Part shown: piece by piece, positions 3,663 through 26,166 of the stretch | Layout: every line of letters begins with the position of its first letter | Numbering within the stretch: the stretch's first letter is position 1 | DNA from: a virus | Strand: one strand, 5' to 3' | Virus record (IMG/VR): IMGVR_UViG_3300038566_000268 | Coordinates: 1 to 28,949 of that record | Length of the DNA stretch: 28,949 bases | The notes under the pieces: generated by a model | The model's database searches: none | What the model saw: the letters and a program-made list of their open reading frames with translations, nothing else | Told to the model about the DNA's origin: nothing | Made by a program: the position numbers and the translations under genes

Positions 3663-5482
3663 CGAACACCCGATTCAATCTGTGTTTTTACCGCTTCACT
3701 CATTTTCTTGGTCGCATCGGCTCTGGTCTTGTCAATGTCAGCCATCTTCCCTTGTTTCTCCAGATCAAATGCCTCTTTCTGCTGCTGTGCCTGTTCTGGG
3801 TTTTGTGAACTGCTCTTTAAGAAGTCCAGAATCGCTTTCTTGTTCCTCAACTGTGAGGACATAATGATCAACTGCCACCTTGGATCACTCAGCGGAAGAT
3901 TAGAGCCGGTCTGTAAGACAGAGATCAGATTATCGAACTGTTCCTGTTGGGCAGTTGGGTAATCCGGTGCGTCTTCGATGATAATGTCCATATCTAACTC
4001 AGCGATAGGATTTTGAGTTTCGACCTGCTCCTTCATCCTGGGATCGTCTTTGATCTGAGCGAGGGCTTGCTGAAAAGCCGGATCATTTACTTGCTCAGGG
4101 GGAAGTTTGGACAAATCTTCGGTCAATTTTTCTTCAACCGTCACGGGGCGGTTAAGTCCGACCCATTTCAGATTATTCTCGTCATCTGTGACACGAATCC
4201 AGCGTTCTGCATCCCAAAACTGCTTAATCCGGTTCCAGACCTGTCGGTAGATACGCTTTTTGAAGTGCCTATGCCCGTCGAAGATAGGGCCAAGCTCCAT
4301 CGTCCCCGCCTGTTGACGAGCGAGTTCTGCACGGCCTGATCTAACTTTACCATCGTCGGTATTGGGGTTGGCGGCTACGTTGTCTATTTCCGCCTTGGCT
4401 TCCTGTAAGAGAGCAAGTTGCCCTTGGGCCAGATCATTTGTACCTAAAAGCTCGAATTCAAAGTTTGGATTGGTTTCTATCGCGCCATCGGGTTTAGCCA
4501 ATTCGTCTTTTGTCCGGTTTGGATCATCCACAGCACCCTTTTCATAGCGGAACTGACGGACAGAGAGCAAGTGAAGGCTTTTTGACCGACGCTTGTTAAT
4601 CTCATCCTGGGTGTCGATCATCGGACGTACCCAGCCGTACCGATTACCGTCACGATCTACGAAGGCAGACTGCATTTCCAGTCCACATTCCGGCATACCG
4701 TCTTCGTCTAAAAACGGAGATTTGAACGGTCCTTTGATAAAGCCGTTTTTGGTGAACTTGGCCCACATCCACACACCGTTCTTCATCCACCAGATGGTTG
4801 CGATTCTGACCCGTTTACGCTCTTTGTCATACCAAAGTGACCTTGGCGTGTCTTCAAAGGTATCGTCGTAGGACTCTTGTGTTGTAGACAGAACCGATTT
4901 TGCTTTATCCTCGGACATGCTTTGGGTTGCCATATCCAAAGCGTCTTCCATGTCCATCCATACGACAGAACCTTTGAACTTTGCATCCCGAAAGTCTCGA
5001 CGACGAGAACGCGGGTCCCAAAATAGTCTATCCCACGGGTAATATTTAATATCGACTTCAAAGCCTTCCTTGATCTTCTTGACAAGGACTTCTGCCCCGC
5101 CTGTTCCTTCGACCAGTTCGTTTTCAAAGACTTCTGAGCTGGTGTAGTCAAATTCCGTATTATCGACGACAAAACGAATGGCATCTGTTGCCGCAGTTGC
5201 CGCTTCTTCATGGACAGGAGTTCTTGGTAGGGCTTTTGGATCGGTTCTGTTCTGTCGTTCAAGCCCTAATAGAAAATCGACTTTCGGTTTTATCCGATTT
5301 ATCGTAATCGCTGGTTGTGATCGTCTTTCCAATGCGGCGAGTTCTTCGTCTGTCCACTGGATATTGTCGTAATAATCCCTGTCCCTTTCAGACATATAAC
5401 GGGAAGTAATGGAGGACTGTTCGTGTTCCTCAAAGTAACCGACGACACGTTTCAGATCGTCTTCATCGTTATGATCTGCCAT
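3659..5482 (-). CDS. Portal protein (P22-like)
   Basis: A 607-residue portal that forms the dodecameric ring at the DNA-entry vertex. Family features are an acidic N-terminus, RDYYDNIQWTDEELAALERR (about 30-50), PAITINRIKPKVDFLLGLERQNRTDPKALPRTP (about 58-88, central to the P22-like family), a segment KYYPWDRLFWDPRSR, a clip/stem region with RPMIDTQDEINKRRSKSLH, and a Gln/Lys/Glu-rich C-terminal helical barrel (about 550-607). Length is in the usual 550-730 range. The start at 5482 follows the previous stop by 2 bases. Unusually, adsorption-type genes separate it from the terminase. Confidence 0.9.
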   Translation of the reverse strand: MADHNDEDDLKRVVGYFEEHEQSSITSRYMSERDRDYYDNIQWTDEELAALERRSQPAITINRIKPKVDFLLGLERQNRTDPKALPRTPVHEEAATAATDAIRFVVDNTEFDYTSSEVFENELVEGTGGAEVLVKKIKEGFEVDIKYYPWDRLFWDPRSRRRDFRDAKFKGSVVWMDMEDALDMATQSMSEDKAKSVLSTTQESYDDTFEDTPRSLWYDKERKRVRIATIWWMKNGVWMWAKFTKNGFIKGPFKSPFLDEDGMPECGLEMQSAFVDRDGNRYGWVRPMIDTQDEINKRRSKSLHLLSVRQFRYEKGAVDDPNRTKDELAKPDGAIETNPNFEFELLGTNDLAQGQLALLQEAKAEIDNVAANPNTDDGKVRSGRAELARQQAGTMELGPIFDGHRHFKKRIYRQVWNRIKQFWDAERWIRVTDDENNLKWVGLNRPVTVEEKLTEDLSKLPPEQVNDPAFQQALAQIKDDPRMKEQVETQNPIAELDMDIIIEDAPDYPTAQQEQFDNLISVLQTGSNLPLSDPRWQLIIMSSQLRNKKAILDFLKSSSQNPEQAQQQKEAFDLEKQGKMADIDKTRADATKKMSEAVKTQIESGVR

Positions 5483-16163: not shown

Positions 16164-16217
16164 CTCTAACCTGTTATTTCAACGGACGCTAAAGCGCCGC
16201 TGAATTTGGTGTTAGTG
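16164..16217. repeat. attC-like site B (integron cassette recombination site)
   Basis: On the plus strand: CTCTAAC box, unpaired CTGTTAT, arm TTCAACGG-A-CGC, loop TAAA, arm GCG-CCGCTGAA, unpaired TTTGGT, and GTTAGTG box. The outer boxes pair over 5 bp, the inner stem over 11 bp with one G-T pair, and one A is extrahelical. This reproduces attC architecture (R box, unpaired spacer, L box with extrahelical base, terminal loop). The methyltransferase stop codon lies inside the GTTAGTG box. Confidence 0.7.
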
Positions 16218-16778
16218 GTTCCCCCAAGTCTGCGCCATCGCTCGCGCAACACCTGCATAAGTCCTGCTCCTCTCTTTCCATCGGTTAGGCCCTGGCGATG
16301 CCTTATGTACAGTAGCGGCTCTCTCGCTAATTACATTTGTAGGTAGTATGGGCGGGAGTCCTTTTGTCCAGAAACAGGTGCGCTTTGTGTGTGGCTCACC
16401 GTGTTCGTATGGCTGCAAACTAAAGTCATGCTTACGTCCTATAATTTCCACAGCGTACTTGTGCATCACAGGGTTTTCAACAGCTACCCGCGCAGCGTTC
16501 GCGTTCAGGCATTTAAGGAAAAATTCCGCACCTTCTTTCATATCGTCCCATAGGTTGCGCTCATGCAACCAACGCACACCGCTATTACATAATCTGGTGC
16601 ATGGTGGATGAGCTATCACTAAATCCCAAGGCTCGCGCAACAAAGGCAGCACATCACCTTGTATATGCGGTCCAGGCGCTTCACTTTCCAGCAGGTCAGC
16701 GCTCACAGCGTCATGTCCTGCTGCTATAAATGCGTCACGAACCCGCCCACTATATTCACACGCTATCAATACTTTCAT
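16212..16778 (-). CDS. DNA cytosine methyltransferase-like protein in a cassette-like unit
   Basis: A 188-residue member of a phage family related to C5-cytosine methyltransferases. MKVLIACEYSGRVRDAF fits the SAM-binding motif I, VIAHPPCTRL (55-63) the catalytic PPC motif with C60, and VENP (100-103) the motif VI ENV equivalent; GPNRWKERSRTYAGVARAMA ends the family. It is shorter than host-type enzymes and has no clear target-recognition domain, so activity is uncertain. It would protect phage DNA from restriction. It is bracketed by attC-like sites at 16164-16217 and 16786-16860, unlike its overlapping neighbours. Confidence 0.75.
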   Translation of the reverse strand: MKVLIACEYSGRVRDAFIAAGHDAVSADLLESEAPGPHIQGDVLPLLREPWDLVIAHPPCTRLCNSGVRWLHERNLWDDMKEGAEFFLKCLNANAARVAVENPVMHKYAVEIIGRKHDFSLQPYEHGEPHTKRTCFWTKGLPPILPTNVISERAATVHKASPGPNRWKERSRTYAGVARAMAQTWGNH

Positions 16779-16785
16779 AAATCAC

Positions 16786-16860
16786 CACTAACAAATCGTT
16801 GCACTTGGATTGCTCCACTCGCTGCGCTCATTACGCAACCAGTGAACTCAATCGTTAGCC
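16786..16860. repeat. attC-like site A (integron cassette recombination site)
   Basis: On the plus strand it begins CACTAACAAATCGTTG and ends AACTCAATCGTTAGCC, close to the remembered left and right consensus of integron attC (59-be) sites. Left arm TT(G)CACT(T)GG(A)TTGC pairs with the complement of the right arm except for three extrahelical bases, all in the left arm as in canonical sites. Total length is 75 bp. By this fold the site is plus-oriented, opposite to the methyltransferase gene. Confidence 0.8.
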
Positions 16861-21519: not shown

Positions 21520-21926
21520 ATCGTGAACGAACAAAAGAAGCTATCAAGGTAATGCAGGCGTATGTGGACGGGGAGGATATTGAATATTGTTTGAGTCGCC
21601 ATAGTGGTTGGACTAGGGTTAGTTCACCCTCATGGAATTGGTACGAAAGACCATACCGTATCGCCCCCAAGAAGGAGAAAGATACCAAAAGATATTCTCT
21701 TTTGCTGAAAACCAAAGTGAAAACATTGGGTGATTGCTGCGATATGTGTGAGCAGATTGAAGTTACAGGCCGGATGATGGCTTTATTCAAGAAAAGTGAC
21801 GGGTTTTTCAGAACGCCGATGGTTGGCGATATAACAACTATCTGCGAGCCGGGGATCAAAGCCGTAGAACTCACTGATGAAGTCAAGGCAGCACTTGAAG
21901 CCGCTGGCATTGAATATGGAGAGTGA
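21516..21926 (+). CDS. Hypothetical protein sharing modules with 22150-22407
   Basis: A 136-residue protein. The N-terminal part with SPSWNWYERPYRIAPKK is a phage pattern of unknown function. Residues 56-66 (DTKRYSLLLKT) and 69-100 (KTLGDCC...GFFRT) recur in the protein at 22150-22407 in the opposite order. The C-terminus (VELTDEVKAALEAAGIEYGE) is helical. ATGA-coupled on the upstream side. Confidence 0.65.
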   Translation: MNRERTKEAIKVMQAYVDGEDIEYCLSRHSGWTRVSSPSWNWYERPYRIAPKKEKDTKRYSLLLKTKVKTLGDCCDMCEQIEVTGRMMALFKKSDGFFRTPMVGDITTICEPGIKAVELTDEVKAALEAAGIEYGE

Positions 21927-22153: not shown

Positions 22154-22407
22154 GCGCACAACTACCAAGGCTATATGATACAGGCTCACCACCTGTGAGA
22201 ATGAAGACGTTAGGCGATTGCTGCGAAATGAGGGATCAGATTGAAATTACGGGCAGGAAGATCGCTTTATTCAGAAAAAGCGATGGATTTTTCAGAACAG
22301 GGGTCGATACAAAAAGATATTCGCTATGGCTGAAAACCAGTGAGCTGATCGGCATTTACAAGCGCGGTGTTGACCCAAAAGACATTTTCAACGACATGAG
22401 GGCATGA
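22150..22407 (+). CDS. Hypothetical protein, permuted duplicate of part of 21516-21926
   Basis: An 85-residue protein. Residues 19-50 (KTLGDCCEMRDQIEITGRK to GFFRT) and 53-63 (DTKRYSLWLKT) match two modules of the gene at 21516 but in reversed order. A helical tail SELIGIYKRGVDPKDIF follows. GGAG lies 6 bases before the ATG. Function unknown. Confidence 0.65.
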   Translation: MSAQLPRLYDTGSPPVRMKTLGDCCEMRDQIEITGRKIALFRKSDGFFRTGVDTKRYSLWLKTSELIGIYKRGVDPKDIFNDMRA

Positions 22408-25106: not shown

Positions 25107-25115
25107 GAGAGGATG

Positions 25116-25361
25116 ATGGAATTACCAAAATATGAGGAAGAACATGACAATCATTCGGAAGAAGAAAAGTATTGTATAGTAATGATAAGAGACTTGCAGG
25201 AGCGTTATGAACGTGCGGCTAAGCCATATTTTGACAGGCTAATGCTTATTCAAGGGTTGAAGCCCCCTAGACCAATTTTTATGACAAAGGACGAAGCGAT
25301 TAATGCGGGGTTACTGCCACCATACACAGAGAGTGCAGCGAGGAATCGCTCGAATGGTTGA
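25116..25361 (+). CDS. Hypothetical accessory protein, C-terminus possibly frameshifted
   Basis: An 81-residue acidic protein with AGGAGAGG upstream (ATG 25113 or 25116). After LLPPYTES it reads an unusual tail. One base more near 25331-25335 would instead give CSEESLEWLKAGIDTLKMCL and a stop at 25400-25402, inside the first box of attC-like site C. That extension looks more protein-like, so the gene may be intact apart from a one-base sequence error. The stretch 25362-25396 is otherwise empty. Confidence 0.6.
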   Translation: MELPKYEEEHDNHSEEEKYCIVMIRDLQERYERAAKPYFDRLMLIQGLKPPRPIFMTKDEAINAGLLPPYTESAARNRSNG

Positions 25362-25396
25362 AGGCAGGTATTGACACGCTAAAGATGTGCTTGGAC

Positions 25397-25468
25397 ACAT
25401 AACGACCATGCTCACGGGATTGAACGAAGTGCAACGTAGTGAAATTCCGGTGGAGCTACTTGTTATAA
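25397..25468. repeat. attC-like site C (integron cassette recombination site)
   Basis: On the minus strand: TTATAAC box, spacer AAGTAG, arm CTCCACCGGAATT, a variable middle, arm AATCCCGTGAG, spacer CATGGTC and GTTATGT box. The arms pair except for a mismatch and two extra bases in the left arm, as in canonical attC. GTTATGT fits the GTTRRRY rule at 6 of 7. Length 72 bp. By this fold it is minus-oriented, opposite to the gene at 25487. Confidence 0.7.
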
Positions 25469-25486
25469 ATTTTTAAAGGTGACGAC

Positions 25487-25798
25487 ATGAGTTTATGTAG
25501 TTGTGATACAGATGATTTTGAATGGACATGGTGGAAGCAAGGAGAGCCGAAGCCATTTGATTTGAAACGTAGAAAACGGTGTATTAATTGTAACCAATTA
25601 ATCGAAATAGGCGCTGAATGCCAAGAGATTGGACGCGAAGGATATGACGATGATGGAAATGACAAAGGACTATCGTCAGCATGGTTATGTGAGGACTGTA
25701 ATGATTTAACGCTAGCTATTGAAGAACTTAACGGCTGCTATACGCTAGGGGGTTTTACTTTAAAAGAACAAATACGCGAAGCGAATGATAACTTATAA
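25487..25798 (+). CDS. Zinc-ribbon phage protein in a cassette-like unit
   Basis: A 103-residue protein with a four-to-five-Cys zinc ribbon: RCINC (C32, C35), GAEC (C45) and LCEDC (C68, C71), on a Trp-rich acidic N-terminus (DDFEWTWWKQGE). It matches a common small phage type of unknown function that shields a metal between two CxxC knuckles. AAAGGTGA precedes the ATG. Its TAA stop lies inside the TTATAAC box of attC-like site D, and GTTATAA, the exact complement, lies 19 bases before its start. It is therefore the cargo of a cassette-like unit (25463-25840). Confidence 0.75.
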   Translation: MSLCSCDTDDFEWTWWKQGEPKPFDLKRRKRCINCNQLIEIGAECQEIGREGYDDDGNDKGLSSAWLCEDCNDLTLAIEELNGCYTLGGFTLKEQIREANDNL

Positions 25799-25846
25799 CA
25801 GTGAATAGACGGCAAATCGCCGTATATCACGCCGCACTGGTTAGGC
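25793..25846. repeat. attC-like site D (weaker)
   Basis: Boxes TTATAAC and GTTAGGC enclose CAGTG/CACTG and ACGGC/GCCGT stems. On the minus strand GCCTAAC fits the RYYYAAC rule fully. The unpaired spacer of a typical attC is not clear, and the outer boxes pair over 4 bp only, so this is the least certain of the four sites. Confidence 0.5.
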
Positions 25847-26166
25847 GTAATTTTGGAGGATATAGGACACTCCAGCACCAGCCTATTTCCTACCACCATT
25901 TATAGGCTTGGCAGATGCCTACTAATTATCTGCTGGGACTTCGTGTAGATGCAGGACGATACTCCCCTAGAACTTGAAGCATTCAGTAGGGCTGCAAGGC
26001 CCTACACCATTTATGGCGCTGCAACTGCTACGGAAACCGGTAGCAAGGGCAGATGTTTATGTAGAGGTGGACCGGCAGGCCAAGGCCCAATGCCGTAAGG
26101 TTTATCGCATATTCTGTAGCCGGTTTGAATCCGGCCGGCGCCACCATTACAGAGAGGTGAGAAAAC
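25847..26166 (+). repeat. Non-coding tandem hairpin units ending in CCA, with a tRNA-like 3' half
   Basis: This 320-bp stretch has no convincing gene. CACCATTTAT occurs at 25894-25903 and 26005-26014, and CACCATTA at 26142-26149, marking units of about 111 and 137 bp. Each unit ends with ATTC-GTAG, a hairpin and an ACCA: GTAGGGC/GCCCTAC then ACCA near 25985-26009, and a T-arm-like GCCGG-TTTGAAT-CCGGC (26119-26135), CGGCGCC, A and CCA to 26146. GGCGCTG at 26015-26021 could pair with CGGCGCC, but the 132-nt span is too long and no proper D or anticodon arm was found. Confidence 0.45.

Follow-up and report, generated by a model that had tools for sequence, protein, structure and literature searches.

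The window, meaning the whole 28,949-base stretch of DNA that was analysed, is an IMG/VR virus contig with genes for a portal, a major head protein, a Sak-like annealing protein and NinG. At 25487-25798 on the plus strand it carries an open reading frame of 103 aa whose predicted four-Cys protein is zinc-ribbon-like, with two CxxC knuckles (C32xxC35 and C68xxC71) that are invariant in both copies, that of the window and that of a second phage contig, G001. The protein matched no family at threshold in Pfam, PHROG or NCBIfam, and its AlphaFold model was too poor for use (pLDDT 41). The gene is preceded by a GTTATAA box (25462-25468, +; on the minus strand it reads as the R'' box of an attC) and by the leader ATTTTTAAAGGTGACGAC (25469-25486, +), which holds a ribosome-binding site and is identical in G001, and it ends in a TTATAAC box (25793-25799, +) that contains its stop codon TAA (25796-25798). 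Both the complementarity of the two boxes at 7 of 7 positions and the stop codon inside the last box had been pointed out in a sequence-only reading of the locus, and both were borne out, although the 7/7 match is weaker evidence than it looks because TTATAA is self-complementary.

Two hairpins at the ends of this unit, site C (25397-25468) and site D (25793-25846, strand unassigned), had been described as attC-like, with D the weaker. They were scored with a covariance model (R2) built from 25 chromosomal-integron attCs only; an RNAalifold consensus of the attC alignment gave no pairs, hence the R and L pairing known for attCs was entered manually, and this pairing covaries in the alignment, with 0 of 500 shuffles reaching its score. 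Site C was the top match in 68 kb searched on both strands, with exact ends on the minus strand, 41.9 bits and an E value of 2.2e-7, and was followed in the window by sites A (33.7 bits) and B (19.4 bits) of another unit. A weight matrix from 70 chromosomal attCs, which found the correct orientation in 69 of 70 leave-locus-out tests, gave site C a score of 28.0 on the minus strand versus 4.2 on the plus strand. Site D reached 6.7 bits on one strand and 6.1 on the other, a level expected about once in 2.5 kb: it has intact end boxes and a central hairpin, but its body is not recognisable as an attC. The model search that the sequence-only reading had proposed thus upheld site C and failed site D on either strand.

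Fold energy alone gives no support at site C, where z was 0.19 and 1.13 relative to shuffles and the site was not separated from them (site D, DNA fold z -2.4 and -1.7); the boxes and the covariance model do support it. The earlier argument from folding therefore carries no weight by itself. The same reading had named equally good folds in shuffled controls, or the absence of any related cassette or attC, as grounds for abandoning it: at site C shuffled sequences did fold with comparable energy, while related cassettes and attCs were found.

The other unit, hereafter unit 1 (the zinc-ribbon unit being unit 2), carries a gene of 188 aa at 16212-16778 on the minus strand that matches the DNA methyltransferase family phrog_757 and is enclosed by the boxes GTTAGTG...CACTAAC. 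Its attC, site A, lies at 16786-16860 (+; E 1.8e-5), antisense to the gene, and site B, the attC of the neighbouring position, at 16164-16217 (+; E 0.04, DNA fold z -3.6). A distance of 8.5 kb separates sites A and C, and the weak site B lies 0.6 kb from A. The claim that two independent units exceed chance held up, since 2 of the 114 ORFs of the window lay in matched-box units, compared with a rate of 2 in 3468 for the ORFs of control phage loci (P 0.002); in the related contig G001 such ORFs numbered 6 of 107 (P 7e-11 against the same control rate). Neither boxes nor an attC were found in any of 80 loci of close relatives of the unit 1 gene, and the chromosomal-integron covariance model gave 0 matches in the 197 kb of 40 phage loci with a relative of this gene outside any cassette. 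There is no complete integron, as neither the window nor G001 yielded an integron integrase (IntI). G001, whose close attCs number six or more, is a CALIN, that is, a group of two or more close attCs with no integrase.

Genes of integron cassettes usually lie in sense with their attC, although this is not obligatory. In unit 2, site C matches the attC model on the minus strand and site D on neither, and the cassette's own attC is therefore site C, ahead of the start codon; by attC convention, I take its recombinogenic (bottom) strand to be the plus strand of the window. The minus-strand R' boxes are GTTATGT (25403-25397) and GTTATAA (25799-25793), and under integron rules the two G^TT cut points of the minus-strand reading would delimit a mobile cassette of 396 bp (25403-25798, -), which would begin at the C that follows the TAA of the neighbour and close with the last base of the gene's own TAA. 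Across the window and G001, all eight junction sites tested had the higher weight-matrix score on the strand opposite the gene. Both units of the window are thus antisense with their own attC upstream (C in unit 2, A in unit 1), and the assignment of D as the own attC downstream had to be given up. The attCs of the two units are on different strands, and each runs against the gene of its unit; this disfavours replication direction as the sole cause of the reversal. The unit is almost certainly an integron-type gene cassette, one of two independent units of this kind and with a genuine attC at C, as the sequence-only reading had claimed, though not with this polarity; that the gene runs antisense to this attC is barely less secure.

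The zinc-ribbon gene was found as a unit in a second context. G001 (= L003) is an otherwise different phage contig of 39 kb with Erf and terminase genes, and its homologue is 78% identical at the amino acid level. At the DNA level the similarity extends from a point 8 bases outside GTTATAA through TTATAAC and is lost beyond these limits on both sides, and the only other DNA matches of the two contigs are short stretches of the terminase region. In G001 the gene sits in an array of at least five units, bounded by GTTAGGC..GCCTAAC, GTTAGCC..GGCTAAC (with a MazG-like gene), GTTATAT..ATATAAC, GTTATAA..TTATAAC (the zinc-ribbon gene) and GTTATGC..GCATAAC; a Lar-like gene also lies within the array, a further GTTATAC unit lies elsewhere, and every covariance-model match in the array is opposite to the genes. 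Relatives of the zinc-ribbon gene were absent from GTDB genomes (pattern-based scan), INPHARED GenBank phages and PLSDB plasmids, and no empty insertion site was found via relatives of the flanking genes.

The attC body next to the zinc-ribbon gene of the window resembles that next to the G001 copy no more closely than unrelated attCs do, and 7 of 30 chromosomal attCs align equally well. Conversely, attCs that are 81-93% identical over ~47-76 nt occur in unrelated phages beside different genes (L115/L135, L128/L132, L116/L152, L130/L152, L217/L157 and L091/L352), the L128/L132 pair at 93% over 76 nt, and form shared phage attC families. From the dissimilar bodies and these near-identical sites together it follows that genes and attCs are partly interchangeable.

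The generality of the reversal was assessed by applying one procedure (best-strand attC, matched box, and an ORF that occupies 80% or more of the unit) to chromosomal attCs, collected from integrons found via their integrase gene, and to an IMG/VR sample of 80 loci retrieved with a general attC pattern that takes no account of gene direction. Sense and antisense units numbered 98:3 in chromosomal integrons versus 7:33 in IMG/VR phage contigs (Fisher P 7e-22), or 30:2 versus 3:17 counted by contig (P 7e-9). Most of the IMG/VR units counted as sense resemble shadow ORFs (L093, L107 and L132) or a bacterial-type integron (L160). A looser second pattern scan of IMG/VR served as a specificity check and was excluded from the data; its 29 weight-matrix matches had no box-to-box unit and weak folds and were dismissed as false positives. 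Terminase was present in 9 of 18 contigs with antisense units (two PHROG models). The antisense ORFs are real genes: there are matches to known families among them (PF00145, the C5 methyltransferases, twice, and Dam methyltransferase, MazG-type and Lar-type families), and in 30 of 39 of their leaders a ribosome-binding-site-like motif separates the box from the start codon. Phage cassettes repeatedly carry small Cys-rich proteins that are zinc-ribbon-like (L108, L118, L128, L130, L135 and L152).

Deposited annotations, which are independent of my own ORF rule, likewise place the genes of Pseudoalteromonas phage H101 (PH101) and MW202573 opposite their attCs. Tetrasphaera phage TJE1 has three sense cassettes by its deposited annotation, and prophages with a captured bacterial integron including intI are mostly sense. 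Reversal is thus dominant in the sample and not universal, and it is very likely general among phage-borne cassettes.

The unit shares with chromosomal integron cassettes its GTTRRRY-type boxes, the inverted match at both gene ends, a single small gene, the match to the attC model (E 2e-7) and a stop codon that often lies in the box. It differs from them in its antisense gene (3 of 101 there), in the lack of attI and integrase in the contig, and in its setting in a phage operon. Phage-borne attC cassettes as such are already known: the CALINs of Qi et al. (2023; PMC9892861) are integrase-free attC arrays in virulent and temperate phages, with methyltransferase cargo, and are functional with IntI1. 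Of these, PH101 and MW202573 are reversed like the window and TJE1 is not; the available part of that paper describes the PH101 array as typical and does not mention the polarity of genes versus attCs. Prophage integrons such as those of Shewanella M16-3 and Vibrio p16 also place attC cassettes in a phage record, but unlike the window they have the bacterial layout of intI and sense cassettes and are captured host integrons. The open-access full texts searched contained no report of reversed polarity as the prevailing form of phage cassettes.

Among the alternatives, the one that fares best is a relic: the unit may have been captured once from a host integron, its attCs now inactive, and be spread solely as part of the phage genome, through homologous recombination. 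The missing integrase in window and G001, the degenerate site D and the lack of attC conservation alongside the zinc-ribbon gene would all suit such a history. However, host integrons are almost without reversed cassettes, so that the host pool is an unlikely source, the boxes and L arms of site C are intact, homology between window and G001 is limited to one unit and a few terminase-region stretches, and attCs of this phage kind do recombine with IntI1 (five of six tested, two of those tested being from PH101; PMC9892861). I consider a relic improbable. An ordinary sense cassette, with D downstream of the stop as its own attC and C belonging to the neighbour, is more doubtful still and very unlikely: the boxes and the stop codon position suit both polarities, and the homology with G001 also starts at GTTATAA, but site D stays at 6-7 bits and C attains its score on the minus strand only, on which grounds D was rejected as the own attC, and the reversal recurs in G001 and in the majority of other phages. 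The least probable alternative, to which I give next to no credence, is that the hairpins, which do fold and lie at operon gene junctions, are terminators or mRNA processing signals that imitate attCs with the boxes as by-products, since the fold energy of site C is ordinary (z 0.19) while its pattern of boxes and L arm fits an attC model trained on bacteria, a terminator does not need matched boxes at both gene ends, and 0 of 80 junctions of unit 1 relatives carry such hairpins or boxes.

The favoured and likely account is a phage-borne cassette of integron type whose gene polarity is reversed, probably moved in the following way. IntI recombines the folded bottom strand of an attC and cuts at G^TT. 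Secondary IntI targets have short cores that fit GTTRRRY loosely (PMC10127599). An integron integrase, either the host's or one carried by a phage, would excise and insert the cassette, acting on the folded single strand of attC that is the coding strand at site C. Its target would be a GTTA core on the template strand, which on the coding strand lies right after a TAA^C stop codon; in a packed phage operon with few other safe places, insertion at TAA^C would add a gene without breaking the upstream one. An attC inserted at such a core would lie antisense to transcription, and the gene would therefore be expressed only if it is antisense to its attC. The incoming gene, with its own ribosome-binding site, would be transcribed from a phage promoter and, itself ending in TAA^C, would offer the next landing site. 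That IntI is the mover is likely; that insertion at TAA^C is the reason for the polarity is a tentative proposal, with slightly less than even prospects.

Antisense genes ended exactly on the box TAA at 44 of 86 phage attCs versus 7 of 143 chromosomal attCs, compared with 6% of all NNNTAAC occurrences in the same phage loci, and in 20 of the 44 cases the gene ending on the box TAA lay outside any matched unit. Unit 1 is a misfit with the insertion model, as its upstream (left) neighbour does not end on the box TAA, and at site C the upstream gene does so only if ORF 25113-25361 is frameshifted. This ORF stops early within 25113-25402, where the continuing frame, ending in SLEWLKAGIDTLKMCLDT, stops exactly on the TAA of the outer box of site C; the early stop suggests a frameshift or an indel introduced in assembly.

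An integrase carried by a phage was found in G002 (L128 and L352; IMGVR_UViG_3300037247_001285), a contig with terminase, portal, head protease, major head protein, phage integrase and repressor genes. Beside its cassette array it encodes a full IntI (TIGR02249, 418.8 bits against a cutoff of 265; L128 3160-4134), which in L128 is present besides a lambda-type integrase. Its attCs (4483-5409, +) are directed away from intI, the usual bacterial arrangement, but its cassette genes are on the minus strand and run in the direction of intI; judging by this layout, their transcription must start at the distant end, on the phage side, rather than at a Pc promoter. A further integron integrase (TIGR02249, 383 bits), with one weak attC nearby, lies at 4680-5675 of L008 (KX853513, Virus Rctr41k; DAMO/AAA enrichment).

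Phage attCs have so far been interpreted as fragments of integrons of the host. If phage cassettes are mostly reversed and host cassettes almost never, they are not simply host cassettes picked up and would form a separate pool with its own expression route and perhaps its own integrases. Chances seem about even that phages keep an integron economy of their own, in which reversed cassettes are shared by unrelated phages, inserted after operon stop codons and silent behind a host Pc promoter; in some of these phages an integron integrase of the phage itself would handle the cassettes, whose genes point towards it. The cargo of methyltransferases, Lar-like and MazG-like proteins and small zinc ribbons may or may not, with equal plausibility, be an exchangeable set of counter-defence genes; a counter-defence role for the zinc-ribbon protein is a guess by analogy with this company. 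If true, integron recombination would be a route by which phages swap small counter-defence genes, would partly explain why phage early regions are modular, and would make the direction of a gene against its attC a simple sequence test for cassette origin.

Some features outside the units were also noted. A 97-nt direct repeat (81% identity; 21718-21814 and 22202-22298) lies within two neighbouring ORFs and is apparently a recent partial gene duplication. tRNA and Rfam scans of the window returned no match. A tRNA-like cloverleaf of ~135 nt at 26014-26151 (+), which ends in CGGCGCCACCA (z -2.15), likewise had no match in ARAGORN or Rfam and no relative in GenBank phages; it has an 8-bp acceptor, a D-like arm, a very long arm in the anticodon position and a T arm GCCGG-UUUGAAU-CCGGC. 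CACCATT(T/A) segments occur at 25893-25904, 26005-26012 and 26143-26152, each preceded by a hairpin whose end resembles CCA, as in GTAGGGC-TGCAAG-GCCCTAC-ACCA at 25987-26009, and this row just downstream of site D possibly represents decayed or unusual tRNA-like elements.
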